From NCBI GenBank assembly GCA_033065855.1, contig JAVXUO010002519.1, positions 1 to 64,000 on the forward strand: a stretch of DNA of 64,000 nt. Direction: 5' to 3'. The notes beneath the pieces are model-generated. The model did no database searches. It was not told the origin of the DNA and saw only the letters and a program-made list of their open reading frames with translations. The position numbers and the translations under genes are program-made. Shown here piece by piece: positions 531 through 52,970 of this stretch; within the stretch, counting starts at the first letter, position 1; the number at the start of each line of letters is the position of its first letter. Source of the DNA: Escallonia rubra. Lineage: Eukaryota; Streptophyta; Magnoliopsida; Escalloniales; Escalloniaceae.

Positions 531-670
531 TCACGGATATATACATATGTACTATACCAAGAATAGCGACATACAGTAAATGCCCCGTCCAAGCCAATCG
601 CTTTAAACTAAGTTTTACCATAACATGCCCCTAATTTGGAGTATTTACAAACATATATACTTGCGCGTGT

Positions 671-696
671 ATATATATATATATATATATATATAT
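671..696. repeat. TA microsatellite at left MULE junction
   Basis: An uninterrupted (AT)n run directly abuts the first base of the MULE. A matching (TA)n run abuts the other end (12914-12936). The 8-11 bp target duplication typical of Mutator elements must lie inside these runs, so its exact length cannot be read. Confidence 0.9.
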
Positions 697-736
697 GGGG
701 CCCGATCCGCACCCACCGGTGGAGAAAAAAAATCTC

Positions 737-985
737 TCCACCCAACCCCATGTAAGAGAGCGGTTGCGATTTTTTTTTTGTCGTGGGCCCCACCACAAAA
801 AGCACTCCTTTTTTTTTGCCCAACCGCATGTAAGAGAAGCGGTTGGGTATAATTATTTTTTTGACGTGGGCCCACCACAAAAAACCACTCCACCCAACCG
901 CTTCTCTTAGAAGCGGTTGGTAAGCACTTTTTTTTTTAACAATTTTTTTAAAAACCCAACCGCATATAAGAGAAGCGGTTGGTGG
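737..985. repeat. Hairpin array near left MULE end
   Basis: Four imperfect palindromes have arms of the type CCAACCGC / GCGGTTGG around an about 10 bp loop (atgtaagaga or similar). They are spaced about 65-80 bp apart, with T-rich or A-rich tracts between. The same four recur mirrored at 12625-12870. These could be transposase-binding or structure-forming subterminal repeats. Confidence 0.85.
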
Positions 986-1070
986 CTTTTTTTTGGGTGG
1001 CTCCCACACAAAAAATTTCAGATTTTTTGGTTGGTCACAAAAAAAAAAAAAAAAAATTGGAGACAAGCCT

Positions 1071-1460
1071 GCCACGTGGCCTCCCCCGCGACTGCCACGT
1101 GGCCCAACCGCGTGAAGGCACCGGTTGGGCGATGGCCCTGCCACGTGGCCTCCTCCACGCCTGCCACGTGGCCCAACCGCATGAAGGGACACCGGTTGGT
1201 GCGATGGCCCTGCCACGTAGTCTCCCCCGCGCCTGCCACGTGGCCCAACCGCGTGAAGGGGCGCCGGTTGGTGCGATGCCCTGCCACGTGGCCTCCCCCA
1301 CGCCTGCCACGTGGCCTTCACACGCCTGCCACGTGGCCCAACGCGGGAAGGTGCGCCGGTTGTTGCGATGGCCCTGCCACGTAGTCTCCCCCGCGCCTGC
1401 CACGTGGCCCAACCGCGTGAAGGGGCCCCGCGGCTTGCCCTCTCCCCCTGCCACGTGGCC
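1071..1460. promoter_or_regulatory. G-box palindrome array in left TIR
   Basis: The ten-base palindrome GCCACGTGGC occurs ten times (near 1071, 1094, 1140, 1163, 1235, 1283, 1305, 1328, 1399 and 1450), plus two variants reading CCACGTAG. The palindromes alternate with CCAACCGCGTGAAGG-type spacers. CACGTG with these flanks is the classical plant G-box/ABRE core bound by bZIP and bHLH factors. The array is upstream of the PMD-Ulp1 gene. It could serve as an enhancer or as a transposase-binding array; the sequence cannot decide between these. Confidence 0.8.
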
Positions 1461-1886
1461 CCCCCCCCCACGCGTCCTTCGCTCCCCGTGACTGTCCTTC
1501 CCAGTGCTTTTTCTTTGTTTGCAGAGTCTTTTTTCTTTGTTTGCAGAGTCTGCCAAATTTTTTTTTTTTTTTCAGAGACCACCACTCACGGGTTTTTTTT
1601 TCCTCTTTTTTTTTTTCTCTTCCTTTTTCTTCTCTATTTATAATCCCCTCCCCCTTCTTCCCACACTTCTTCTCCGCACTTCTTCTCCACAAACCAAAAA
1701 ATTTTAGCGCTAGAAGATCGGTGGATAATCGCTAGAAGATCGGTAGATTTTTCTTCAAATACATCAAGTCACAACAAGTAAGTATTTTGAATTTCCTTAT
1801 AATTCAATGTTAGGTTTATACAAATCAGCGTATTACACTTAGCGTATTACATTTATAGCGATTCAAAATAGCGTATTACATTTATA

Positions 1887-2520
1887 GACAGTTTTTCACG
1901 GATTTATAAAAAATAGCTAGAGCGAGATTTTGCCAAAGTACAAAAAAGAGACCCTAGTTATTCTGAAAGGATCTGTATCAGGTAAAAATTTCAGATTTTT
2001 CCAAAGACTGTAAAGGGGCTAACTGATACGGGGAACCGTGTACCTTCGCAGTCTAATTTAAAATACCAAGCTAGCGCGATTTCGTGCGAAAATTTTAGGA
2101 GAACCTTAGGATGTTGGGAAGTTCCATTCCCCAGGATTTCGCGCCATTCCGGAGCCGTTAGCTATTTTTTTGCCCGAACGGCCCTTTCAGCGCTCGCCCT
2201 TTAATTAGACAGCTTTTTCACGGATTTATAAAAAATAGCTAGAGCGTGATTTGGCCAAAGTGCAAAACAGAGACCCTAGTTATTCTGAAAGGATCTGTAT
2301 CAGGTAAAAATTTCAGATTTTTCCAAAGACTGTAAAGGGGCTAACTGATACGGGGAACCGTGTACCTTCGCAGTCTAATTTAAAATACCAAGCTAGCGCG
2401 ATTTCGCGCGAAACTTTTACGAGAACCCTAGGATGTTGGGAAGTTCCATTCCCCAGGATTTCGCGCCATTCCGGAGCCGTTAGCTATTTTTTTGCCCGAA
2501 CGGCCCTTTCAGCGCTCGAT
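1887..2520. repeat. Tandem duplication of an about 320 bp unit, left TIR
   Basis: Two head-to-tail copies begin at gacagtttttcacggattta (about 1887) and gacagctttttcacggattt (about 2208) and end in ttgcccgaacggccctttca. The mirrored right TIR also has two copies (about 11140-11775), so the duplication predates the present TIR homogenisation or was copied between the ends. The second left copy runs on into additional TIR sequence. Confidence 0.85.
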
Positions 2521-3336
2521 CCGGACACCGGTTCGCGATTTTTGCGCGAAAAATCCGTAAAGTACTTTTTAGGCCAATGATGAACTCACGAAGCGTAAAG
2601 TAGCATTTCGAGGCACCTTTGAGATTTTTCCTGATGCCAGGGGCATTTCGGTAATTTGTCACCCCGCGAGGGGTGTTTCGGTAATTTTCCCGCGCCAAGT
2701 TTTTAATTACACAGTTTTAGTCCAGGAATGTAATCACAGAACCTGAAATGTTGTTTTGAAGCTGGTTCGGGGCCGTTGGGGTGATAGTGAACCCCCGGGG
2801 GCATTTCGGTAATTTGCCGCTCATCGGGGACTATTTTGCTAGGAAGGATCCAGCTTAAAGGGCCATACCTTAAAATAACTTTTAGTTCAGCAAAGGGTGT
2901 CAGACACCCGAAAACTTTTATTGTTCCGGGTGAATTCAGGAACTTGTGACGCACCGGCGATGACTGCCACGCGGTATGGTGCACAAGTAGCGGGTGTTTT
3001 GGTAACTTTCCCCCTTTCAAATTTTTCCTGATATATTTGGTATATAATTGACGTAATACATTTAAAAACTTGAGTTCAAAGCGGTTTTTAGGTCTTTTGG
3101 GTGTAGGGGCCATCGGGGGGTATATTGCTATATAACCACGTTGGCGCTAAATTCAGTGAGAACTAGCGTAATTAAGCGTTCGGAGTGGTGGGAAGTGAGG
3201 ATTTGTTTTAATACATTGAAATAATGACTATTGCTAATGTGTTGGTAAGCTAGGTTAAAGATCCAGGAATGTAGTTTTGGAATGTAAATATTATGGACGC
3301 TAAGTTGGTTTACGATTATATTTTGTTCTTAGAGAT

Positions 3337-6249
3337 ATGGATTTCAACCCCGGACCTCATGATACATCAATCCTATACGATGACGATGACCACGTCGCGA
3401 GGCACGTATTTGACGGTGTCGATAGGGGTGTTTTGGAAACAATTCAAACCACAAGAGGAATTGAAGAGTGGGTACTAAACGAGGAACAAAAAGCCCTTAT
3501 ACACGGTCAAAATTTAAGCCTGTTCACCGATTGCGGGAAATGGTATCGCCACGACGATTGCCTTATATCCGCTCTAGTTGAACGATGGAGGAGCGAGACG
3601 AACTCATTTCATTTCCGGTTTGGTGAAATGACTGTTACGTTAGAGGACGTCGGATATATACTTGGAATCCCATGTCACGGCAGACCCGTTACTCTGAGCG
3701 TGCCGTCTGCATCCGTAGCGAATATGGCTAGGCATTATTTTCTGGGAATTCCAAGGGCAGCTCTTACAACAAACGGCGTCAAGCTTAAATGGCTGAGAGA
3801 GCAGTATGGCGTGCTACCGGATGAATACACTCGTCAGGATTTCGTGACGTATACGAGGGCATACCTTCTGTATATTATTGGAGCCATATTACTTCCGACG
3901 CATTCGAAAAACACGGTGCATCCGAAGTATATGGTGTTATTGGAGGATCTTGACGAGGTATACTCGTATTCGTGGGGTTCAGCTGTCCTTGCGCACCTAT
4001 ATCGAGCACTGCATAAGGCTACGAGATTCGGTGCCAAGTCCATTGCCGCCTGCCTGACTCTATTACAGGTATGAGCATTTATTTTCTTATCCGGATCCTT
4101 AGTCAATATATTCGGGATTCATTACTAATTCCATATAATGTTTGCGTTCACAGGTTTGGTCTTACGAGAGGCTACCCACGGGTCGTCCACAACCGTTGGC
4201 AGATTCCGATGAGACGTGGCCTAGGGTGTGGGCCTGGGGGCCTCCGACCAACCGGAGGAGGAGACGGGTAGACCCTCACAACCATCTACAGTTCTATCGG
4301 GGGGAACTAGAGATGCTGGATGCATACCAGGTGGCGTGGCAGCCATATGACAAGGTGATGCATCTGTTGGATGAGTTGTGTTGGCAACTTCCGGTGTCGT
4401 ACGTGCTTGCAGGTTTGGTTCGGGTGCCGCTCATTCACTTCGAAGAATGTGAGTTTCAGATGCCCGATCGAGTTATGAAGCAAGCTGGCTGTCCACAAGG
4501 GATTCCGAAACCCGCTGTAGACATGCGGCCATACAGGGGTGGTCGAGGGCCGAACTTCGAGGTGGCTAATGCCTTGACTGTGTTGGGTGACGAGGTGCAA
4601 CAATGGAATACCTGGCAGGAAACGTATGACAGCCTTGTATCGATGAAGCACGACGGCATCAGTACTGAGGACTACTTACAGTGGTTTCTCAGGGTGACGC
4701 GCACGAGGGTGACTCGCCCTGCCCAAGTGAGGACCAAATCGTATGCGCCACGTGAGGTCTATGACCAGTTCTGGGCATTGGCCATTGTAAGTCATGCTAG
4801 TGTTGTTTGATAATTTATTTGCGCACGCGTATCGACCATCAAATGAAATGATTAGCCATATTTTCTATGCATGTTTTTTAGGTTGACCAGGCCACTGACG
4901 TGTTCAAGCAGCTGGAGTCGTTTGACTGGTTTGTCGCGCAGGCTCCTGATAATATCAAGAGGTCCATTGAGAGGTACAAGACTGATGTTCAAAACTTTAG
5001 TCTTGCGTACCGGGGTTACCAAGGGGAGCCGTCTAGTCGCCCTCCTCCTGACGCTTACGACTATCAGCCCCAGAGTCAGGTGTGGGAGCCGTCTAGTCGC
5101 CCTCCTCCTGACGCGTACGACTACCGAACTTCGAGTCAGGTGTGGGAGCCGTCTAGTCGCCCTCCTACTGACGCGTACGACTACGGGGCTTCGAGTCAGG
5201 TGTGGGAGCCGTCTAGTCGCCCTCCTACTGACGCGTACGACTACGGAACTTCGAGTCAGGTGTGGGAGCCGTATAGTCGCCCTCCTCCTGACGCATACGA
5301 CTCTCAATGCCAGAGTCAGGTTCCCCAAGTAGGAATCCATGCCTCGTGGCCAAGATTCCGGTCTAACAAAGGACAAGCGACGAAGCCATTGAGGCCGGAG
5401 AAGATGGGTTGGATCGACCGGTACTACTTCGGGCATGAGCCTGTCAATGCAACAGACTTCCCTCTTGGGACACACCTAGGTCATTCGGATGTCAGAATGT
5501 TGGCGCCGGAGACAGATCTTTCAAATTTTGTCATCAACGCTTACATAGATCTGCTCCGGATTAGAGAGCATCAATTTAACCGTTCTGAATACTGTAAGCT
5601 TAACATGTATCCCACTCATTTTGTGGAATTAGCGATCCGGGAATTCCATCAATGGAGGCAAGGGGGCAACATGAGTAATTGGAAACCAGGTCGAAATGTG
5701 TTAGCCATGATGAACGCAGAGTATCAATGTCCCGCTGCTGATGCGAACCTTATCATGATACCTTGTCTTCATGGGCACCACTGGTTCCTATTAGTTCTCC
5801 ATCCAGCGTTCAGAACGGTTCACATATACGATAGCCTAAGGGAGGACGAGCCTGGACAGCTGCTGGCACAGATGTACAACGACTACATCACTTTAGTGGT
5901 TAGTTTTTATTTTTTGACCTTGGCTCATAGTATATTGTTGTTGTTTCATAGGCTTGATTCTCGATTTTATTGTTGGATGCAGACTACTGTCCTCTCGATA
6001 GCGTGCGGACGGCCACGGGGGGAGCCTTGGATTGTCGTGATGATAAAGGACCGACCAAAGCAATTTAACGGTAACGATTGCGGGATTTACGTCCTCAAGT
6101 ACATGGACTACATTGCTCGCTCGGAAGTGCTCAAACACTCCTCGTGGACTAGGAAGAATGCCTTGACGTTTAGGTGTAGGATAGCTTGGGAACTGAAAAA
6201 GAATGAAGCCAGACGACTTCATTACCATTATCCTGACGTGCGTGGCTAG
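3337..6249 (+). CDS. Plant mobile domain plus Ulp1 (C48) cysteine protease fusion, spliced
   Basis: The inferred exons are 3337-4068, 4154-4786, 4882-5898 and 5983-6249; all introns fall between codons and have GT/AG ends. This gives about 882 residues. Residues ~40-420 match the plant mobile domain (PMD, the MAIN/MAIL1 aminotransferase-like domain), with FRFGEMTVTLEDVGYILGIP and, across the first splice, CLTLLQVWSYERLPTGRP. Residues ~504-604 hold five 20-residue tandem repeats (EPSSRPPPDAYDY...). Residues ~640-882 are a Ulp1-type SUMO-protease domain with the full catalytic set: H755 (GHHWF), D772 (YDSL), Q821 and C827 (NGNDCG). The last intron is 84 nt, a multiple of three with no stop, so retention would give a 910-residue form. 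The chosen ATG is the first in this frame after the TIR. The protein probably acts in the nucleus. It sits where MuDR carries mudrB. That it helps transposition or counters host control is inference only. Confidence 0.82.
5026..5325 (+). repeat. Five in-frame 60 bp coding repeats in PMD-Ulp1 gene
   Basis: Five consecutive 60 bp units each encode about 20 residues of the form EPSSRPPxDAYDYxxxSQVW. The period is exactly 60 nt, so frame is kept. Differences cluster at the Pro/Thr position and at the three residues after DAYDY. They form a Tyr/Pro-rich, probably disordered linker between the mobile domain and the protease. The antisense strand is also open across the array, which is a by-product of the repeat. 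Confidence 0.95.
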
Positions 6250-6299
6250 CTGCTGTGATGTTACAAAAAACTGTACCAAAAAGAAATGTACATAATTTT

Positions 6300-7430
6300 T
6301 CGCATGCTATTTTTTTGGCGCTAAAACGTGCGCGAATATACAGTTCATCTGACGCATTCGAAAAAATAACGTGTCTCGTTTTTTGCCGAAATACATAAGA
6401 ATGAGCTAACTAGCGCGCCTCATGTGCAATGAGCGAAAAAAAGTGACTAAAAAATTTACAAGATTTTTCGAACGTTATGAATTGGCCCCTAAAGTGTGCC
6501 CGAATAGGCCCTTCATAGGAAAACCGAAAAAATAACGTGTCTCGTTTTTCGCCGAAATACATAAGAATGGGCTAACTAGCGCGCCTCATGTGCAATGAGC
6601 GAAAAAAAAGTCACAAAAAAATTTACAAGATTTTTCGAACGTTATGAATTGGCCCCTTTAGTGTGCCCGAATAGGCCCATCATAGGAAAACCGAAAAAAT
6701 AACGTGTCTCGTTTTTCGCCGAAATACATAAGAATGGGCTAACTAGCGCGCCTCATGTGCAATGAGCGAAAAAAAAGTGACTAAAAAAGTCACGGCAGAT
6801 TTTTCGAACGTTATGAATTGGCCCCTAAAGTGTGCCCGAATAGGCCCTTCATAGGAAAACCGAAAAAATAACCTGTCTCGTTTTTCGCCGAAATACATAA
6901 GAATGGGCTAACTAGCGCGCCTCATGTGCAATGAGCGAAAAAAAAGTCACAAAAAATTTTACAAGATTTGTCGAACGTTATGAATTGGCCCCTTTAGTGT
7001 GCCCGAATAGGCCCATCATAGGAAAACCGAAAAAATAACGTGTCTCGTTTTTCGCCGAAATACATAAGAATGGGCTAACTAGCGCGCCTCATGTGCAATG
7101 AGCGAAAAAAAAGTGACTAAAAAATTTACAAGATTTTTCGAACGTTATGAATTGGCCCCTAAAGTGTGCCCGAATAGGCCCTTCATAGGAAAACCGAAAA
7201 AATAACCTGTCTCGTTTTTCGCCAAAATACATAAGAATGGGCTAACTAGCGCGCCTCATGTGCAATGAGCGAAAAAAGAGCCGTCTAAAAAATTTACTTG
7301 ATTTTTCGAACGTTGTGAATTGGCTCATAAAGCGTGCCTAAAGTGCAATGAACAAAACAAATTACAAGATTTTTCGCCAAAATGCTATGAATTGGGCGCT
7401 AAAGCGTGCGCGAATATGCCATTCAAAACA
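6300..7430. repeat. Satellite-like array, about six units of ~167 bp, between the two MULE genes
   Basis: The phrase (g/c)tgtctcgtttttcgcc recurs at 6371, 6537, 6704, 6873, 7040 and 7207, a period of 166-169 bp. Each unit also holds ctaactagcgcgcctcatgt and ttcgaacgttatgaattggc. Units alternate between two subtypes (ccctaaagtg and cccctttagtg), suggesting growth by a higher-order two-unit step. Flanking partial, more diverged units lie at both ends. The array fills the gap between the 3' ends of the convergent genes. No coding potential. Confidence 0.92.
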
Positions 7431-7561
7431 TTTCAATAATCCACAAACCAAATCACAAATTAAAGATTCAACAAATCAAATCACAAATTAAAGATTCAAC
7501 AAATCAAATCACAAATTTAAAGATTATAAAAGTTATTCGTTATACAACTGAAACATTAACC

Positions 7562-9856
7562 CTAACACTCTTCCTCCTCATCGTCCTCCTCGACCATACT
7601 GCCAGGTGCGAGACCTAACACTTTATAATGGTTTCTCTTGTCATGATCAGTCATCTTATTACACAACGCACACTTTCGCAATTTTTTTTGACCCGTTGCT
7701 TTTTCAATCGGATTCTTCATGCGCATTTCTCGTTTTTGCCCTTTTGTTTGAGAAATAATTGGATCAAAAACCTTGTCGTCCTCCTCACCTTGCATGCTAG
7801 TGCCGTCAATGACTGGCTGTTTGGCTCGATTGAATCTACCGGCTGGAGTCGGTCGAGGGTCCCGGCTTTCTGGTAATGCCATCCTAAACTGTGCATGCTT
7901 AGCATGATCCCGTGCGGCTGCTTCAACTTGATAAGTGTACCCATCAAATGTTGACGCTGCATCCATTGATAAACCGTGCATGATGTTACAAAGATGATTA
8001 TATCGCAGCGCCTCAGATTGCCTGAAATCAACTGAAACACTGGGCACGTAAGGAATGTGACCGTGGACTCTATTGGCTTCCTTCGTCCACCGTTCCAAGA
8101 TATACTGTGGAGGGATTTGAGTTGCATTCTTGGCGCTCAAAACCCTCAACGCATGTCGACAAAGTATACCTTTATGCTCAAACAGTTGACAGTTGCAATT
8201 TACCAACCCGGTGTCCATACATTTAGCTACGGTAAAATGTCTTCTGTTCCTCGGAGCCGACGAAGAGCACGGATTGGCATAATTCGTCACATTTTTCAAA
8301 GCATAAACCTTGAGATCTCTGGTGGAAAACTCGTGCAACTTTGTCATGCTATATTGATTCGACTTTAATAGTTCCTCTTGAAACTGTCGAAACATTTCCT
8401 TCGTATAGACTTGAGCCGCATGAGCCTCCAAAGGTGAACAAAGTAGTATGGCTCTTTCTCTGTAAACTGTAGCCGCGTCGGCTTCTCTCTCACGGTACAA
8501 TTGCCTCTCAAGGGCTTTCTGCATCTCTAGTACAAACTCCGCTATACTTGAAGACTGGCCTACGTACCCATCAAAGAATGAATTCATAGCTTCGCTTCTC
8601 GATGTCGTAGTCATTCCGGCTGCAAAAAACTTCTTGGTGTAGGCACCGACCCACTGTGTCTTGAGCTCATACAACGATTGTAACCATCCATGATTGTGCA
8701 AACCGTAGTCATCCATTAATGTGGCCCACCTCTCCTCGAACACGTCTACCGTCAACGATTTCTTCACACATGTATTAAAGTCAGTCCTGAATGACGGATG
8801 GTTTGCATATACATTGTGAAGCCGTTCGGGATATTTGTTGCTTATGTGCCATGTGCACAGGCCATGGTGAGTATCTGGAAGGACCTTAGCAATTGCATTT
8901 TTCATTGCCAGATCTTGGTCGGTGATGATGGTCTTTGGAGGAATATGGTACATTGCTTTAAGCCACGTTTCAAATAACCACGTAAATGACTCCTCCGTCT
9001 CATCCCTAAGCAGGGCAAAGCCAAATGAGATTGACTGATAGTGGTGGTTCACCCCGGTGAACGGAGCAAAAGGCATAGAGTACTTATTGGTGCGGTATGT
9101 GGTGTCAAACGTCACAACATCCCCAAAATTTTGGTAAGCAGCTCTAGAACGGGGGTCCGCCCAAAATATAGTACTAATGCGGTCCTCATCATCCACTTGG
9201 AGACTGTAGAAAAATCCAGAATTCTCACTCTGAAGGCACCTGAAGATATCAAGTGTAGCTTGAGAATCGATCTGACCGAAAGACTCTCTCCTCTGAGCAC
9301 GGAGTTCATTTCGAAGGTCAACTTCGTTGAAAGTCAACTTGTCAATCCCCCCAGCCCGGCTTGAGAAAACCCCCATCATCTTAGAAGGTGGAATTTTAGC
9401 GTCGGCCATTGTTGAAATCAGTTGTCTGTGTGCCGCGCTTATTTCTCGGTGTTGATGAATTTGACCAATCATACTAGGGGTGCAAAACTGATGATTATGG
9501 CTCAACTCCACACCCGTCACAACCCAATGGTTTTCATTTTTCCGGTGTACTGCATACACATGGGCTTTGCAGCCGGTACCCGGAAATGTGTCCCGTTTTC
9601 TTTGTCTTGTTGTCCCTTCGTCACTGATCTGAACGACCGGGGGTACATACGGTGCTCCTCTATGACACTCAAATAACCTTGCACCAATTTGATCGGTATC
9701 CACCCGTGTTCTAGTCGTCTTTGTTCTAAGACCGAAATCCATCGTTTTCGAATATGCTCTGTAGTATGCTTCGACTTCGTCCAGTGTTTGAAAAACTTGA
9801 CCCAAGTAAGGTGGATCAGAACCTTCACAAAAAATATTTCCTCCAGTTGCATCCAT
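7562..9856 (-). CDS. FAR1/MuDR-type MULE transposase
   Basis: A single uninterrupted 764-residue frame. An N-terminal FAR1/WRKY-GCM1-like zinc-binding domain spans about residues 19-122 (C64, C96, H120/H122). The central MULE transposase DDE domain has D251 in TFDTTYRTN, D313 in IITDQDLAMKNAI and E422 in SRSEAMNSFF, with the C/H motif CTWHISNKYPERL between the second and third. A SWIM zinc finger carries C554, C556, C566 and H568 (CNCQLFEHKGILCRHAL). The C-terminal C729-C732-H738-H743 patch may be a zinc knuckle, followed by an acidic tail. Length is typical for the FHY3/FAR1-related clade. The start ATG precedes the conserved N-terminal block. It cuts and joins the element at its TIRs. All catalytic residues are present, so it looks functional. 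Confidence 0.93.
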   Translation of the reverse strand: MDATGGNIFCEGSDPPYLGQVFQTLDEVEAYYRAYSKTMDFGLRTKTTRTRVDTDQIGARLFECHRGAPYVPPVVQISDEGTTRQRKRDTFPGTGCKAHVYAVHRKNENHWVVTGVELSHNHQFCTPSMIGQIHQHREISAAHRQLISTMADAKIPPSKMMGVFSSRAGGIDKLTFNEVDLRNELRAQRRESFGQIDSQATLDIFRCLQSENSGFFYSLQVDDEDRISTIFWADPRSRAAYQNFGDVVTFDTTYRTNKYSMPFAPFTGVNHHYQSISFGFALLRDETEESFTWLFETWLKAMYHIPPKTIITDQDLAMKNAIAKVLPDTHHGLCTWHISNKYPERLHNVYANHPSFRTDFNTCVKKSLTVDVFEERWATLMDDYGLHNHGWLQSLYELKTQWVGAYTKKFFAAGMTTTSRSEAMNSFFDGYVGQSSSIAEFVLEMQKALERQLYREREADAATVYRERAILLCSPLEAHAAQVYTKEMFRQFQEELLKSNQYSMTKLHEFSTRDLKVYALKNVTNYANPCSSSAPRNRRHFTVAKCMDTGLVNCNCQLFEHKGILCRHALRVLSAKNATQIPPQYILERWTKEANRVHGHIPYVPSVSVDFRQSEALRYNHLCNIMHGLSMDAASTFDGYTYQVEAAARDHAKHAQFRMALPESRDPRPTPAGRFNRAKQPVIDGTSMQGEEDDKVFDPIISQTKGQKREMRMKNPIEKATGQKKLRKCALCNKMTDHDKRNHYKVLGLAPGSMVEEDDEEEEC

Positions 9857-9974
9857 ATTTATACTGAAATCTAAAAAATAAAAACCAATACGATTATCAA
9901 CAAGTCATAGAATTAAATAAAAGAAGAATAAAAATTATTTAAACGTAATTGCTGGAAAAATTCGTATAATGTAA

Positions 9975-10362
9975 AATTATCAAAATAGCCCCCGACGAGC
10001 GGCAAATTAGCAAAATGCCCCCGGGGAGTTCATTATCACCCTAACGTCCCAAATCAGCTTGAAAACAACCTTTCAGGTGCTTTGCTTACATTTCTGGACT
10101 AAGAAGTCCTTTAAAAAACTTAACGCTGCAAAATTACGAAAATACCCCCCTCGGGGCTGCGAATTACCAAAAAATGCCCCCTGGCATCAAAATAAGCTTC
10201 CTGAATTCATCTGGGACAAAATAAGTTTTCGGGTGTCTGACACCCTTTGCTGAACTAAAAGTTATTTTAAGGTATGGCCCTTTAAGCTGGATCCTTCCTA
10301 ACAAAATAGCCCCCGATGAGCGGCAAATTACCGAAATGCCCCAGGGGGTTCACTATCAGGTT
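9975..10362. repeat. Diverged third copy of inner TIR sequence
   Basis: 9975-10106 resembles 10818-10940 of the right TIR (cccccg...agcggcaaatta, then ccagctt/tcagctt...cctttcaggt). 10170-10360 resembles 10690-10880 (gggtgtctgacaccctttgc, aagctggatccttcct). It lies between the transposase gene and the right TIR, in the same orientation as that TIR, and is more diverged than the two TIRs are from each other. It is probably the proximal promoter region of the transposase gene and a relic of TIR slippage or duplication. Confidence 0.75.
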
Positions 10363-12188
10363 ATAATATTTACATTCCAAAACTACATTCCTGGATCTTT
10401 AACCTAGCTTACCAACACATTAGCAATAGTCATTATTTCAATGTATTAAAACAAATCCTCACTTCCCACCACTCCGAACGCTTAATTACGCTAGTTCTCA
10501 CTGAATTTAGCGCCAACGTGGTTATATAGCAATATACCCCCCGATGGCCCCTACACCCCCAAGACCTCAAAACCGCTTTGAAGTCAAGTTTTTAAATGTA
10601 TTACGTCAATTATATACCAAATATATCAGGAAAAATTTTAAAGGGGGAAAGTTACCAAAACACCCGCTACTTGTGCAAAATACCCCCTGGCAGTCATCGC
10701 CGGTGCGTCACAAGTTCCTGAATTCACCCGGAACAATAAAAGTTTTCGGGTGTCTGACACCCTTTGCTGAACTAAAAGTTATTTTAAGGTATGGCCCTTT
10801 AAGCTGGATCCTTCCTAGCAAAATAGTCCCCGATTAGCGGCAAATTACCGAAATGCCCCCGGGGGTTCACTATCACCCCAACGCCCCCGAACCAGCTTCA
10901 AAACAACATTTCAGGTTCTGTGATTACATTCCTGGACTAAAACTGTGTAATTAAAAACTGGGCGCGGGAAAATTACCGAAACACCCCTCGCGGGGTGGCA
11001 AATTACCGAAATGCCCCTGGCATCAGGAAAAATCTCAAAGGTGCCTCAAAATGCTACTTTACGCTTCGTGAGTTTAACAATGGGCTAAAAAATACTTTAC
11101 GGATTTTTCGCGCAAAAATCGCGAACCGGTGTCCGGATCGAGCGCTGAAAGGGCCGTTCGGGCAAAAAAATAGCTAACATCACTGGAATGGCGCGAAATC
11201 CTGGGGAATGGAACTTCCCAACATCCTAGGGTTCTCGTAAAATTTTCGCGCGAAATCGCTCTAGCTTGGTATTTTAAATTAGACTGCGAAGGTACACGGT
11301 TCCCCGTACCAGTTAGCCCCTTTACAGTCTTTGGAAAAATCTGAAATTTTTACCTGATACAGATCCTTTCAGAATAACTAGGGTCTCTGTTTTGCACTTT
11401 GGCCAAATCACGCTCTAGCTATTTTTTATAAATCCGTGAAAAAGCTGTCTAATTAAAGGGCGAGCGCTGAAAGGGCCGTTCGGGCAAAAAAATAGCTAAC
11501 GGATCCGGAATGGCGCGAAATCCTGGGGAATGGAACTTCCCAACATCCTAGGGTTCTCGTAGAAGTTTCGCGCGAAATCGCGCTAGCTTGGTATTTTAAA
11601 TTAGACTGCGAAGGTACACGGTCCCCGTACCAGTTAGCCCCTTTACAGTCTTTGGAAAAATCTGAAATTTTTACCTGATACAGATCCTTTCAGAATAACT
11701 AGGGTCTCTTTTTTGCACTTTGGCAAAATCTCGCTCTAGCTATTTTTTATAAATCCGTGAAAAACTGTCTATAAATGTAATACGCTATTTTGAATCGCTA
11801 TAAATGTAATACGCTAAGTGTAATACGCTGATTTGTATAAACCTAACATTGAATTATAAGGAAATTCAAAATACTTGTTGTGACTTGATGTATTTGAAGA
11901 AAAATCTACCGATCTTCTAGCGATTATCCACCGATAAAATTTTTTGGTTTGTGGAGAAGAAGTGCGGAGAAGAAGTGTGGAGAAGAAGGGTTGGGGGGAG
12001 GGGATTATAAATAGAGAAGAAAAAGGAAGAGAGAAGAAAAAAGAGGGAAAAAAATACCCGTGAGTGAGTGGTCTCTGCAAAAAACAAAATTTGGCAGACT
12101 CTGCAAACAAAGAAAAAAGCACTGGGAAGGACAGTCACGGGGAGGGAAGGACAGTCACGGGGGAGCATCACCCGCGTGGGGGGGGGGG

Positions 12189-12531
12189 CCACGTGGCAGG
12201 GGGAGAGGGCAAGCCGCGGGGCCCCTTCACGCGGTTGGGCCACGTGGCAGGGCCATCACACCAACCGGCGCACCTTCTCGCGTTGGGCCACGTGGCAGGC
12301 GCGTGGAGGCCACGTGGTAGGGCATCGCACCAACCGGCGCCCCTTCACGCGGTTGGGCCACGTGGCAGGCGCGGGGGAGGCCACGTGGCAGGGCATCGCA
12401 CCCCCCGGTGTCCCTTCACGCGGTTGGGCCACGTGGCCGGAGCGGGAGAGGCCACGTGGCAGGGCCATCGCCCAACCGGCGCCCCTTCACGCGGTTGGGC
12501 CACGTGGCAGTCGCGGGGGAGGCCACGTGGC
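12189..12531. promoter_or_regulatory. G-box palindrome array in right TIR
   Basis: GCCACGTGGC occurs nine times (near 12189, 12240, 12288, 12358, 12380, 12429, 12451, 12500 and 12522), plus one GCCACGTGGT variant. It mirrors the left TIR array but differs in number and spacing, so the two arrays have changed independently. Confidence 0.8.
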
Positions 12532-12624
12532 AGGCTTGTCTCCAAATTTTTTTTTTTTTTGTTGTGTGACCAACCAAAAAATCTGAAATTTTTTGTGTGG
12601 GAGCCACCCAAAAAAAAAGCCACC

Positions 12625-12870
12625 AACCGCTTCTCTTATATGCGGTTGGTTTTTTAAAAAAATTGTTTAAAAAAAAAGTGCTTACCAACCGCTTCTAAGA
12701 GAAGCGGTTGGGTGGAGTGGTTTTTTGTGGTGGGCCCACGTCAAAAAAATAATTATACCCAACCGCTTCTCTTACATGCGGTTGGGCAAAAAAAAAGGGA
12801 GTGCTTTTTGTGGTGGGGTCCCCGAGAAAAAGAAATCGTACCCAACCGCTTCTCTTACATGCGGTTGGGT
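12625..12870. repeat. Hairpin array near right MULE end
   Basis: Four CCAACCGC / GCGGTTGG hairpins (about 12627, 12685, 12760 and 12841) mirror those at 737-985, separated by A-rich or T-rich tracts. Confidence 0.85.
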
Positions 12871-12913
12871 GGAAAAAAAAATTTTATCCACCGGTGGGTG
12901 TGGATCGGGCCCC

Positions 12914-12936
12914 TATATATATATATATATATATAT
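12914..12936. repeat. TA microsatellite at right MULE junction
   Basis: A (TA)n run follows the last MULE base directly and matches the run on the left side. It contains the target duplication, whose length cannot be resolved. Confidence 0.9.
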
Positions 12937-25800: not shown

Positions 25801-27841
25801 GATATGCTCGTCAAAAGCATAAAGTCTGAATTTCATGTCAAAGACTTGAACAAAACTTTCGACATCCTTCGAAAGTATAAAATGAAGCTGAATCCACTCA
25901 AATGCGCTTTCGGAGTCGCATCAGGGAAATTTTTGGGGTTTATGGTTTCTCAACGAGGAATTGAGGCAAACCCGGAAAAGATCAAGGCCATTCAAACCAT
26001 GACGTCTTCAAAAACCATCAAACAAGTACAAGAGTTAATAGGAAGGGTCGCAGCCCTGGGAAGGTTCATGGCTCGATCAGTTTAACGATGCTTACTATTC
26101 TTCAAAGCCATCATAAAAGCAAAAAATTTCGTTTGGACAGACGATTGTCAAGAATCGTTCGAAGCACTCAAAACTTACTTGAGTTCTCCGCCCCTACTTT
26201 CAAAATCACTTCCCGGCGAAGACTTGTTTCTGTACCTCTCGGTCACCGAAGTCGCAGTTAGCACTATTTTAGTTAGAGAGGAGGATGGAGCTCAGAAACC
26301 TATCTATTATATCAGCAAAGTCTTACAAGATGTAGAGACGAGATATCCGAAGATTGACAAGATCGTACTAGCCCTTATCATATCAACTAGGCGTCTTCGA
26401 CCATATTTCCAGTCTCATACCATTATCGTGTTGACGGACCAACCACTTAGAAAGGTTTTACTGAGCCCCAAGGCATCAGGAAGATTAGTCAATTGGTCTG
26501 TCGAGTTGGGGGAATTCGAAATCCAGTATAAGCCTCGCACTACAATCAAAGCTCAAGCCCTAGCAGACTTTATTGTCGAGTGTACATTACCTGAAGACCC
26601 CCCTCAGTTGGTGATTTCTGAGGTTACAGACCCTTGGAATCTTTATGTAGACGGTTCTTCAGCTGTTGGTAGTAGCGAAGCCGGAATTATTCTTATAAGT
26701 CCAAAAGGTTTTACTATTGAGTACGTGCTTCGCTTTGGATTTCAAGCCTCAAATAACGAAGCAGAATATAAGGCTCTTCTTGCAGGGATAAGGCTAGCAC
26801 ATGCCTTAAAGGTGGATTCACTATCAGTTAATAGTGATTCCCAACTGGTGGTCAATCATGTCTTGGGAGATTACGAGGCCAGAGACGAAAGAATGGCTCA
26901 ATATCTCAACTTAGTTAAAACTTCAGCTGTGAAGTTTCAAAACTTCACCATTTGCCAAATCCCTCGAGATCAGAATACTCAGGCAGATACATTATCAAGG
27001 CTTGCTTTCGCTGAAGAAACTGATGTCCAGCGCCCGGTATACCTTGAATTCCTCTAGGGTCGCAGTATCAGTTCTCAAGTTGAGATTGAAATAATTGATC
27101 AAGAACCCTGTTGGATGGACATGATCATCAAATACTTGTCCACATGCGAATTACCAAGTGAAAGACATGGGGCGAGGAACCTTCGTGTCAAAGCTGCTCG
27201 GTATGCTTTAGTGGAAGGAACTCTATACAAGAAATCCTTCAGCCTTCCTTACCTCAGATGTTTACGCCCATCAGAATCCTTCTACGCATTACAAGAAGTA
27301 CATGAAGGGATATGTGGCCAACATCTTGGTTGTTGTGGGCTTATCGAACAACTCCACATTCGGTTACAGGGGAAACGCCTTTCTTACTGTGCTATGGAAC
27401 GGAAGTAATGTTGCCAGTTGAGATAGGAATTCCAACAATACGGGTCTCGCATTTCAACGAATTAAACAACGAAGTTTGACTCCGAGCAAATCTTGATTTG
27501 GTAGAAGAAGCTCGAACTCAAGCCATGAGCGATATGTTGTCATAAAACAACGAGTCGCACGTTATTACAATCAGAGAGTCCGATCCAAGCAGTTTAACGT
27601 GGGAGATTTAGTCCTTCACAAATTAGAAGTTTCCGATCCAAAGGCAGCGACGGGAAAGTTATCTCCAAATTGGGAAGGACCCTATCGTGTTATAAAGGTA
27701 CTCAAACCGGGTGCCTACACACTGGGAACACTTTCGGGAGAATCCATCCCTCGTACTTGGAATGCTGAGAACTTGCGTAGATATTTCTATTTTGGGGGGA
27801 TAAAGGGCCCAGACCTTATCAAAACCCCAATAAATAAATAG
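22890..27841 (+). pseudogene. gag-pol region of the Tat element (fossil)
   Basis: Recognisable family blocks: gag (about 23480-24060), aspartic protease (VLIDNGSSAEVLFYDAF near 24680), reverse transcriptase (about 25440-26090, with YVDDMLVKS at the active site), RNase H (about 26200-26600), a second RNase H typical of the Tat lineage (26640-27000, YVDGSSAVGSSEAG) and parts of integrase (27110-27840). Not intact; I treat it as a dead copy. Confidence 0.9.
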
Positions 27842-30779: not shown

Positions 30780-31440
30780 ACGTGGAAGGAACCAAAACTT
30801 TGGCCGAGCAGAATCTTTTCCGAGCACTCTGCCCGAGCAGAGTGATTGGCCGAATAGAATTCTGTCCGAACAGAATCCCGTCCGAACACTCTGCCCGAGC
30901 AGAGTGACCTTGGCCAAACAGAATTATGTCCGAATAGAATTTCGTCCGAACACTTTGCCCGAGCAATGACCTTGGCTGAACAGAATTCCGTCCGAATAGA
31001 ATCCCGTCCGAACACTCTGCCCGAGCAGAGTGACCATGGCCGAACAGAATTGTGCCTGAGCAGAATCCCGTCCGAACAGAATCGTTCCCGAGCAGAATCC
31101 CCGTCCGAACACTCTGCCCGAGAAGAGTGATCTTGGCCGAACAGATTTGTGCCCGAGCAGAATCTCGTCCGAACATAACTCTGTCCGAACAGATTCGTGC
31201 CCGAGCAGAATCCCATCCGAACAGAATCGTTCCCGAGCAGAATTCTGCCCGAACAGAATTCCGTCCGAACACTCTGCCTGAGCAGAGTGATCTAGGCCGA
31301 ACAGATTCGTGCCCGAGCAGAATCCCGTCCGAACAGAACTCTGTCCGAACAGATTAGTGCCCGAGCATAATCCTGTCCGAACAGAATTCTACCCGAGCAG
31401 AACTGTGTCCGAACAGAACCTTGTCCGAGCCGAGCACTAT
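30780..31440 (+). repeat. Minisatellite in the 3' region of the Tat element
   Basis: A degenerate tandem array is built on ccgaacagaatcc(c)gtccgaac and the alternating ctctgcccgagcagagtg. The second phrase is itself a near-palindrome (CACTCTGC/GCAGAGTG). A shorter related stretch lies upstream at about 27960-28130, before the antisense ORF. Reading frames over the array are repeat artefacts. Tat-lineage 3' regions are known sources of such tandem repeats. Confidence 0.88.
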
Positions 31441-50843: not shown

Positions 50844-52970
50844 CTAATCATCCGGAAGTATTTCAATATCCGAGTCACTGCTCTTCCTATCATCAATCGG
50901 TTTATCTTGCTCGCGGTATTTCGCATCAAGATAATCCTTCCAACATACACATAGCTCGAGCGACTCGAGGTTAAGACGACTCCTCCTGTCATCCAAAACC
51001 CTCCCGCTTGCTGAAAATGCCGACTCTGAAGCAACCGTGGAGGCTTGCACTGGCAGTACATCCCGTGCAATTTGGGATAAAGTTTTATACATGTTTTGAT
51101 TTTGTTTCCAAAAATTTAACAAATTAAAATTAACCTGTTCTTGCCTTGATAAATCAGAATAATGATCAGTATTTGCATATACACCAATCTCATTAAAAGA
51201 GGAAAAATTATACGAACCTCCCGAATTAGAAGTACCTTCACCTGGTAGTTGTCTTGCTACTAGATGTTCAAAGCCTTGAAGGTATGGCGCATAATACCTC
51301 TCAGCAGTGGATGATGATGTAGCTCGCCCGCGCACGTCAGCAGAATTACGATAGAGGTTGAACAAGTCCTCAAACCTCTTGCTCACTTTTGCTGTGAGCA
51401 AGGTTGTGTCCTCTGCTGTGTAGTGCATTAATTTCGATATCTCTTGTATCGAGGCGTTCACGCCATGCAACTTTAACCTAGGATCTAAACAAGTAGCCAC
51501 AGTAAAAATAGCAGGCAGTTTACTCCAATATTTATTAAATTTTTGATCCATCACTTGTACTATTTCCCTAAAGGGTCCTATATATCTCCATTTTGTTAAC
51601 ATTGTAGCCATCTTCAGAATTTCTATTACAGCGAGAGGAGAGGTGGGATAGTACGTACCAGACAATAAATTGGTAGACGTGTAGAATACCTCCAAAAATT
51701 CAGCTAGGTATGTGGCCATCTGCCATTCCTCTTGAGTTGGCAAGCCGGCTGGGAACTGGGTTAGTAGAAAATGCGTGTAGACTTCTCGGTATGCCAGAAT
51801 GTGTAAAAGCATGTGGTATGTAGAGTTCCACCTGTGGACCACATCTGTAACTGCTCTCCTGCGAGGCATATTATATTGAACACACAACGTTTTAAATTGT
51901 TGTGTTCTCAAACTCGAGCCATTAACATACGCTGTCATACCCCTCATTTTGAGCAGAATATCTCCTGCAGCAGCTAAACCATCTTGAACAATTAAATTAA
52001 TAATGTGACAAACACAACGAACATGAAATAATTCACCATGAAGTACAGGTTGAAGCGTTTCCTTTAAAGCTGCAACAGCAGCTTTATTATTAGAAGCATT
52101 ATCAAAACTAACACTCATAATCTTATCCTTAATTTTAAATGCGGTGCATGCTTTTAATATAAGAGTAGCAATGTTCATTCCATCGTGCGGATAAGGGAAG
52201 TGCTCGAAAGCGATGATTCTCTTGTGCATAACCCAATCTGCATCAATCCAATGAGCGGTCACACAAGAATAACTAATAAAAGTATAAGGAGATTGCCAAA
52301 TATCAGAAGTAAGACTAACTTTACCGTCAAATTTATCGAAATAATCGATAAGGCGTGCTTTAGCAGCCTTGTACTGTAGGAGTGCATCGGATCTAGTTGT
52401 GTTTCTAGTAACCTTTTTGTACAAAGGTTGGACGTATGTGTTCATATATCTAGAGTACTTAGGATTATCGGCAAAAGAAAAGGCTTGTTCATCATGAATA
52501 ACAAATTCAGCGAGACCGTCTCTTTGCTCTCGCTGATTATAAACAAATAACTTACCGTCAAAAGATAATTGCGTTTGGGTAGGTTCGACGTGACCTTGTC
52601 GAGGTGCACACTGAGGGTAATGCCTGTTAAGATGTCCATTACCACTACTAGTCGAAAATAATTTAAGACAGTACTTACATCGAGCTTTTCGGGTGTCGTC
52701 CACCGTAACTACGTCGAAATGATTCCAACACTCGGCTTTCTTCTTTTTTCCCTTTTGGACTTCTGGCACGTTATCGGAGGCATTGCTCGGCCCTTCTTCA
52801 TCATGACCAGGCATAGGGTTGAGATTATGCCACTGAGTAGTAGCTTCGCCAACCGAGCTGCGTCCTTGACTATAATGCGGGGGGTCTTCATCAGGCGTGT
52901 ATTCAAAATCTGGAATGTTTTGATTGAACTCCCAATTGGCTTGGGTATCTATCATAGAGCCTGTACTCAT
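50844..52970 (-). CDS. hAT transposase with BED zinc finger
   Basis: An uninterrupted frame of 708 residues. BED-type zinc finger at about 80-121 (C98, C101, H113, H117; CWNHFDVV...CKYC...NGHLNRHY). The RNase-H-like catalytic domain has D223 (LTSDIWQS), D290 (SVSFDNASNN) and E649 (ASESAFSASGR), with the insertion-domain motif RCVCHIINLIVQDGL near 318-332. The C-terminal hAT dimerisation region is at about 610-690. All three acidic catalytic residues are present and the length is typical of plant Ac-like/RICESLEEPER transposases. The frame stays open for about 48 codons upstream of the ATG with a Ser/Pro/Ala-rich sequence but no further ATG, so an upstream exon could extend the protein. It probably acts in the nucleus, cutting TAGAG-type ends. 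Confidence 0.94.
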   Translation of the reverse strand: MSTGSMIDTQANWEFNQNIPDFEYTPDEDPPHYSQGRSSVGEATTQWHNLNPMPGHDEEGPSNASDNVPEVQKGKKKKAECWNHFDVVTVDDTRKARCKYCLKLFSTSSGNGHLNRHYPQCAPRQGHVEPTQTQLSFDGKLFVYNQREQRDGLAEFVIHDEQAFSFADNPKYSRYMNTYVQPLYKKVTRNTTRSDALLQYKAAKARLIDYFDKFDGKVSLTSDIWQSPYTFISYSCVTAHWIDADWVMHKRIIAFEHFPYPHDGMNIATLILKACTAFKIKDKIMSVSFDNASNNKAAVAALKETLQPVLHGELFHVRCVCHIINLIVQDGLAAAGDILLKMRGMTAYVNGSSLRTQQFKTLCVQYNMPRRRAVTDVVHRWNSTYHMLLHILAYREVYTHFLLTQFPAGLPTQEEWQMATYLAEFLEVFYTSTNLLSGTYYPTSPLAVIEILKMATMLTKWRYIGPFREIVQVMDQKFNKYWSKLPAIFTVATCLDPRLKLHGVNASIQEISKLMHYTAEDTTLLTAKVSKRFEDLFNLYRNSADVRGRATSSSTAERYYAPYLQGFEHLVARQLPGEGTSNSGGSYNFSSFNEIGVYANTDHYSDLSRQEQVNFNLLNFWKQNQNMYKTLSQIARDVLPVQASTVASESAFSASGRVLDDRRSRLNLESLELCVCWKDYLDAKYREQDKPIDDRKSSDSDIEILPDD

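Follow-up and report, generated by a model that had tools for sequence, protein, structure and literature searches.

A Mutator-like transposon family of Escallonia rubra pairing a FAR1-type transposase gene with a plant mobile domain-Ulp1 gene

A stretch of 64,000 nucleotides of Escallonia rubra (GenBank assembly GCA_033065855.1, contig JAVXUO010002519.1, positions 1 to 64,000, hereafter the window) contains, at 697-12913, what is almost certainly a single transposon, in which long terminal inverted repeats (TIRs) enclose two convergent genes. This Mutator-like element (MULE) is 12,217 bp long; one of its genes encodes a FAR1-type transposase and the other, PMD-Ulp1, a protein in which a plant mobile domain (PMD) is joined to an Ulp1-type peptidase domain (Peptidase_C48, hereafter C48). 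Both genes and both ends were intact in the window copy. Judged by its sequence, the element represents a Jittery/FAR1-type TIR-MULE family of a plant and is probably autonomous. We tentatively propose that PMD-Ulp1 counteracts silencing of the element.

Architecture and copies of the element

The arms that the initial annotation had described as 2.6 kb TIRs aligned from end to end (2,598 bp on the left and 2,551 bp on the right, with 95.9% identity over 2,531 aligned columns), and TIRs were also confirmed over 1.8-2.0 kb in the copies on C2188 and C518, which places the family in the TIR class. The transposase displayed Pfam matches to FAR1 (PF03101, 1e-10), MULE (PF10551, 9e-33, positions 1-98 of 99) and SWIM (PF04434, 2e-7); a FAR1 (WRKY-GCM1-type) N-terminus together with a SWIM C-terminus corresponds to the Jittery/FAR1 type, an assignment made by domains and without a tree against Jittery or MURA. 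Comparison of the transposase with solved structures by sequence gave no credible match (best E 0.41).

Of the two convergent open genes claimed initially, the convergence and the open transposase frame were upheld, whereas PMD-Ulp1 was divided into four exons instead of forming a single open frame, and its ATG was located 43 bp past the inner edge of the TIR (3294 to 3337) and not 43 bp inside it. The joined exons encode 882 amino acids with matches to PMD (1e-69) and Peptidase_C48 (1e-15), in accordance with the gene pair first described. The C48 part matched SENP2 by sequence (4e-6), and PMD exon 1 had no match among solved structures by sequence up to E 10. Introns were bordered by GT-AG, all three pairs being kept in 39 of the 40 copies compared (see below); the 84 bp at 5899-5982 can be read as an intron with GT-AG borders or as an insert in frame, and splicing at this point is uncertain because the same 84 bp were open in frame in 39/40 copies. 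The predicted His-Asp-Gln-Cys active-site motifs of C48 were retained in 24 of 27 open copies.

Repeats accompany both genes. In all eight TIR ends considered, the outer 1.1 kb held 9-14 GCCACGTGGC palindromes and the following 0.9 kb none. The word CACGTGGC occurred 42 times in the window (both strands), 39 of them inside the TIRs, as compared with 0.6 expected. CACGCGC, the FAR1/FHY3 motif, was considered as a TIR motif and abandoned, with one copy in the whole element. The satellite reported between the 3' ends of the genes was recovered, and between copies it varied mostly by steps of about 167 bp, the coding repeat of PMD-Ulp1 varying by steps of 60 bp. Many of the satellite matches (best 40 of 581 candidates) shared a contig with the element.

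The assembly searched comprised 566 Mb in 3,222 contigs; matches were scored for the best 59 of 4,643 transposase candidates and the best 150 of 4,378 PMD exon candidates, and counts are thus lower bounds. Even among these matches the host genome carries many copies, a high-copy family, which indicates that the structure of the element is not due to chance. Of the 59 transposase matches, 48 lacked in-frame stops and 52 had a convergent PMD exon at 2.6-4.1 kb, so that the further copies with both genes sought after the initial annotation were found in abundance. Four of the seven remaining matches (C2420, C2369, C2816, and C1686) adjoined a C48 part; the transposases on C984, C2261, and C1418 had neither a PMD nor a C48 partner among the matches listed. 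We compared the cores of 40 of the 52 paired copies, chosen by best transposase score. The four PMD-Ulp1 exons and the transposase were present in all 40, with frames open in 34 cores for the transposase, in 27 for PMD-Ulp1, and in 24 for both. Some copies are non-independent: C1928:55737 is not an independent insertion because it has the left flank of the window copy in common, and L027/L033 and L039/L041 are near-identical pairs.

Two diverged copies, L069 and L070, presented amino-acid identities of 85-89% for the transposase, 79-88% for the PMD exons and 55-72% for the C48 exons, and both maintained the same order: PMD, the coding repeats of 60 bp, C48, a satellite of 166/167 bp (12.7 units in L069 and 6.6 in L070), and the convergent transposase. 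The pairing of the genes therefore predates the recent burst. The abundance of the pair and the layout shared by these two copies also indicate that PMD-Ulp1 is not a late separate insertion within the MULE; this, or the absence of a second copy with the same gene pair, would have refuted the initial annotation, and both are rejected. Gene distances co-varied among the 40 copies (Spearman 0.56 for transposase-PMD, 0.87 for transposase-C48, and 0.50 for PMD-C48; 0/999 permutations each). PMD and C48 diverged out of step, C48 being farther than PMD in L069 and L070 and nearer in L072, which hints at domain exchange between subfamilies.

Some derivatives were recorded separately. The PMD-Ulp1 copy L071 (C1235:193900-197000) has an internal deletion that brings the initial part of exon 1 up against the end of exon 2, and at C1240:260073 and 260202 two family tips lie 129 bp apart in the same orientation. 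A count of 29 two-ended elements in which PMD-only derivatives exceeded transposase-only ones (13 with both genes, 13 with PMD only, and 3 with neither) was dropped because more transposases emerged (C168, C1631, C2188); at least 15 of the 29 hold both.

Table 1. Features of the element and their positions in the window.
Feature	Position	Strand	Basis
(TA)n target microsatellite, left	670..696	.	window sequence; flank recurs without element at C1928:47640-47790
Left TIR, tip GGGGCCCGATCC	697..3294	+	inverted-arm alignment
Ten GCCACGTGGC palindromes in ~72-bp tandem repeats, outer left TIR	1071..1459	.	repeat scan, motif count
322-bp tandem duplication inside left TIR	1885..2518	.	repeat scan
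PMD-Ulp1 exon 1, N-terminal half of plant mobile domain	3337..4068	+	Pfam, comparison of 40 copies
PMD-Ulp1 exon 2, remainder of plant mobile domain	4154..4786	+	Pfam, comparison of 40 copies
PMD-Ulp1 exon 3, linker containing the 60-bp coding repeats (5024-5321), then C48 His and Asp	4882..5898	+	repeat scan, Pfam, comparison of 40 copies
PMD-Ulp1 exon 4, C48 Gln and Cys	5983..6249	+	comparison of 40 copies
167-bp satellite, 5.9 copies, between 3' ends of both genes	6359..7338	.	repeat scan
Transposase, 764 amino acids, FAR1 + MULE + SWIM	7562..9856	-	one open frame, Pfam
Right TIR, tip GGGGCCCGATCC likewise	10363..12913	-	inverted-arm alignment
Palindrome array, outer right TIR: nine GCCACGTGGC, ten CACGTG	12188..12531	.	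motif count
(TA)n target microsatellite, right	12914..12936	.	window sequence

Outside the element, the window contained a 708-amino-acid open frame (50844-52970, minus strand) with two hAT transposase domains, one for dimerisation (1e-21) and one RNase-H-like (1e-12), which may be an intact hAT element. It also contained a piece of a retroelement (26179-27057, plus strand), an open frame whose RNase H domains are of the type associated with reverse transcriptase, and a tandem array of CCGAACAGA-like words with periods of about 64, 80, and 97 bp (30804-31428).

Insertion sites and mobility

The family inserts mostly into (TA)n microsatellites. Tracts of (TA)n were present at both ends of all ten two-ended elements (the window copy and nine others, taken from the TIR matches because both ends were present). 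Genome-wide, at least 120 exact tips were preceded by nine A/T, with perfect TA alternation in 87 of the 92 shown with letters; when the check was made on fully listed contigs, nine A/T preceded 29 of 33 exact tips and were missing before the other 4.

An empty site, which the initial annotation had recommended looking for, was present for the window copy at C1928:47640-47790, with about 40 bp of TA-rich sequence between the same flanks. The target duplication of the window copy is ambiguous because its site consists of TA repeats. A second copy of 7.9 kb on the same contig (C194:111529-119383) was bordered on both sides by AATAAATAA, a clean 9-bp duplication at a non-TA site, in agreement with the 8-11 bp (typically 9) that characterise MULEs. 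Taken together, the empty site and the duplication on the sister copy indicate that the family has been mobile. These data, along with the copies keeping both genes open, fit the autonomy initially considered possible, and the lineage is very probably autonomous.

That the TA tracts were instead made by the element after insertion, through slippage of a TA-rich duplication and without any targeting, is highly improbable: slippage is able to lengthen them, and MuTAnT flanks are longer than empty sites (PMC4486113), but the empty site of the window already has its tract, several copies display compound CA/TA or GT/TA microsatellites as flanks, and the non-TA copy combines its clean duplication with the absence of a TA tract.

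Other insertion sites showed particular features. The C2188 element (L051, L052, L074; C1913:3290-3430) is inserted into a repeated palindrome at its TA loop, and empty relatives of this palindrome are also TA-centred; an empty site proposed for it was dropped as proof, its flanks being repeated palindromic sequence and the matches paralogues. The flanks of the C518 element (L049, L050) carry TTAATTAGGATAAGATGAAAG past the TA tracts on both sides, a 21-bp direct repeat that is longer than a MULE duplication. In the right flanks of the elements on C286, C1716, and C1928 (L054, L066, and L068), the TA tract is followed by other MULE-like tips, which suggests that several TA-targeting families are stacked side by side.

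Possible role of the PMD-Ulp1 gene

The host PMD proteins MAIN and MAIL1 function in transposon silencing (PMC7156037, PMC5418596), PMDs carried by transposons have been proposed to counter silencing (PMC5418596), and genic PMDs fused to a protease domain are mentioned as well (PMC7156037). In the VANDAL MULEs of Arabidopsis, the VANC anti-silencing proteins, with DUF1985 and tandem peptide motifs, act on non-coding tandem repeats (PMC5735166), and some VANC genes contain an Ulp1 domain (PMC13317346).

Our account of the element is as follows. The FAR1-type transposase would bind the TIRs, with the GCCACGTGGC / CCAACCGC arrays as candidate sites, and would move the element by cut and paste, leaving a 9-bp duplication masked inside TA repeats. 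PMD-Ulp1 would be a VANC-like accessory factor encoded by the element itself. Its PMD part may guide it to the repetitive non-coding DNA of the element or to the MAIN/MAIL1 silencing module of the host, and its C48 part would remove SUMO-like modifiers from silencing proteins at the element, so that the transposase is expressed. We read the gene in this way because in the element a PMD that weakly cross-matches DUF1985 and DUF7745 goes together with peptide repeats, with an Ulp1 domain and with non-coding arrays that, like the peptide repeats, vary in copy number. By analogy with VANC, we assign a probability of roughly 0.42 to anti-silencing as the use of PMD-Ulp1, and the same figure to the whole account with a VANC-like role. 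That the gene is useful to the element in one way or another appears likely from the comparison of copies, although these odds are held down by the selection results given below. A more detailed version, in which a TIR-MULE would possess a self-contained and element-specific anti-silencing system parallel to VANDAL/VANC, is quite unlikely as a whole; PMD-Ulp1 would then read its own arrays (TIR palindromes or 167-bp satellite), the variable 20-amino-acid peptide repeats would track array changes, and removal of SUMO would open the element again, host genes being spared through TA targeting.

Selection was estimated at two depths. In young copies (mean dS of 0.023-0.029 for transposase, PMD, and C48), the ratio of nonsynonymous to synonymous divergence (dN/dS) was 0.44 for the transposase, 0.46 for PMD and 0.75 for C48. 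As young copies were too alike, four diverged copies (L069-L072) were brought into the tests. Pairwise codon models against L070, the deepest copy, gave omega values of 0.45 for the transposase (p 2e-6), 0.53 for PMD (p 7e-4), and 0.50 for C48 (p 2e-4), and PMD presented 0.68 against L072 (p 0.037).

Several observations weigh against an anti-silencing function and against usefulness in general. The C48 value in young copies is near the neutral value if transitions are favoured; since transition bias puts the neutral value of the method below 1, C48 is not clearly constrained in them. Omega was higher against L069 (0.70, p 0.09 for the transposase; 1.11, p 0.7 for PMD; 0.81, p 0.36 for C48) and L071 (0.83, p 0.63 for PMD; 1.14, p 0.72 for C48), as it was for C48 against L072 (0.93, p 0.8), PMD of L072 being the only comparison with these three copies that fell below 1 at p<0.05. 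PMD-Ulp1 was broken in all four diverged copies, by a frame change in the peptide repeats (L069), stops (L070 and L072) or the internal deletion (L071). Broken genes raise omega, yet L070, which is also broken, gave the lowest values, so decay alone fails to explain the spread. Breaks affected PMD-Ulp1 in 13/40 copies vs. 6/40 for the transposase, and among the open copies the catalytic Cys was replaced by Tyr in two (a near-identical pair) and the His motif was altered in one. Lastly, the match to DUF1985 (PF09331, the VANC domain) was weak (6e-7 for exon 1 and 9e-6 for the joined protein, both under the curated cut-off), and PMD also cross-matched DUF7745 weakly. The evidence for purifying selection on PMD-Ulp1 is therefore mixed: it was seen against L070 and was absent or blurred elsewhere, and the odds of usefulness are reduced because 4/4 diverged copies are broken and three of them display little or no constraint.

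These mixed results give more weight to a neutral passenger, that is, a captured gene which rides with the transposase and is dispensable to the element. Capture of gene pieces is common in MULEs and that of Ulp1 frequent (PMC2528002), and the omega values close to 1 that most comparisons to L069, L071, and L072 gave, the C48 ratio of young copies, the open copies without the catalytic Cys and the more frequent breaks in PMD-Ulp1 would all be expected of such a gene. We nevertheless consider it unlikely, as the pairing and the gene structure predate the recent burst, the gene is open in 27/40 copies, and omega against L070 is about 0.5 for both PMD and C48, like that of the transposase.

Unlikely as well would be a gene that takes the mudrB place and assists transposition directly, without any relation to silencing; it might aid excision, reintegration or the choice of TA sites, for example by taking SUMO off repair or target-site proteins. 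Its position and orientation match those of the second gene of two-gene MULEs (the genes of MuDR are convergent), it is paired with the transposase in 52 of the best 59 matches, and in young copies the constraint on PMD equals in size that on the transposase. Against such a role, Jittery and AutoMuTAnT, with a related transposase type, are reported with a single gene (PMC4486113 for AutoMuTAnT), so that neither TA targeting nor a transposase of the FAR1 type depends on a second gene, and host PMDs are linked with silencing (PMC7156037, PMC5418596). Anti-silencing remains our tentative preference.

Relation to known elements

The structural description given by the initial annotation was sound; TA targeting, the palindrome arrays of the TIRs and the resemblance to VANC had been overlooked. 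MuTAnT/AutoMuTAnT of Medicago truncatula share with the present family a Jittery-like transposase, a GGGG tip, insertion into (TA)n and 9-bp duplications outside microsatellites (PMC4486113). AutoMuTAnT is 4,873 bp long with one five-exon gene, and the short MuTAnT copies have TIRs of 47 bp on average (PMC4486113), in contrast with the 12.2 kb, the intron-free transposase frame, the 2.6-kb TIRs, PMD-Ulp1, the satellite and the many open copies of the E. rubra element. SaTar and the autonomous AgS- and ArS-MULEs of guayule and rice also sit in TA microsatellites, and neighbouring MULEs there are joined via TA tracts in non-nested arrays, as happens here on C286, C1716, and C1928; these elements differ in being mostly short and non-autonomous, the larger ones being of about 5 kb or defective, and the terms PMD and Ulp1 were not found in the text examined of that account (PMC5907723).

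Jittery-like MULEs of grapevine and melon combine a Jittery-type transposase with a downstream Ulp1, sometimes in opposite orientation; no TIRs are tabulated for Jitvine-1 and Jitvine-2 of grapevine, and PMD is unmentioned in the sections covered (PMC2528002). VANDAL elements with VANC-KIU in Arabidopsis present a PMD-like (DUF1985) N-terminal part, peptide repeats, a KIU-form Ulp1 and non-coding tandem repeats, although they are non-TIR MULEs with another transposase type, whereas the TIRs of the E. rubra element are very long (PMC5735166, PMC13317346). Of the two proteins, VANC alone has a demonstrated anti-silencing activity (PMC5735166). PMD-C of grasses and Amborella was also captured by MULEs, in which it is fused to the transposase (PMC5418596). 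Here, in contrast, the PMD belongs to a separate convergent gene and is fused to Ulp1. MuDR of maize is likewise a TIR-MULE with two genes; it differs in its MURA transposase, in having mudrB where PMD-Ulp1 sits here, and in TIRs of about 200 bp vs. 2.6 kb.

Published work already covers Jittery-like MULEs that target TA, Jittery-like MULEs containing Ulp1, and fusions of PMD to a transposase. Literature searches, with subscription papers and Repbase outside their reach, found no account of a TA-targeting MULE of the FAR1 type in which PMD-Ulp1 is a gene of its own, convergent with that of the transposase. For TA-targeting MULEs, the papers cited here report a single putatively autonomous element in the case of MuTAnT (PMC4486113) and defective elements in guayule and rice (PMC5907723), and the present family adds to them a large two-gene element. 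With many open copies of PMD-Ulp1 beside a transposase, this family would provide a concrete object, with visible candidate target arrays, on which the proposed counteraction of MAIN and MAIL1 by the PMDs of transposons may be tested.

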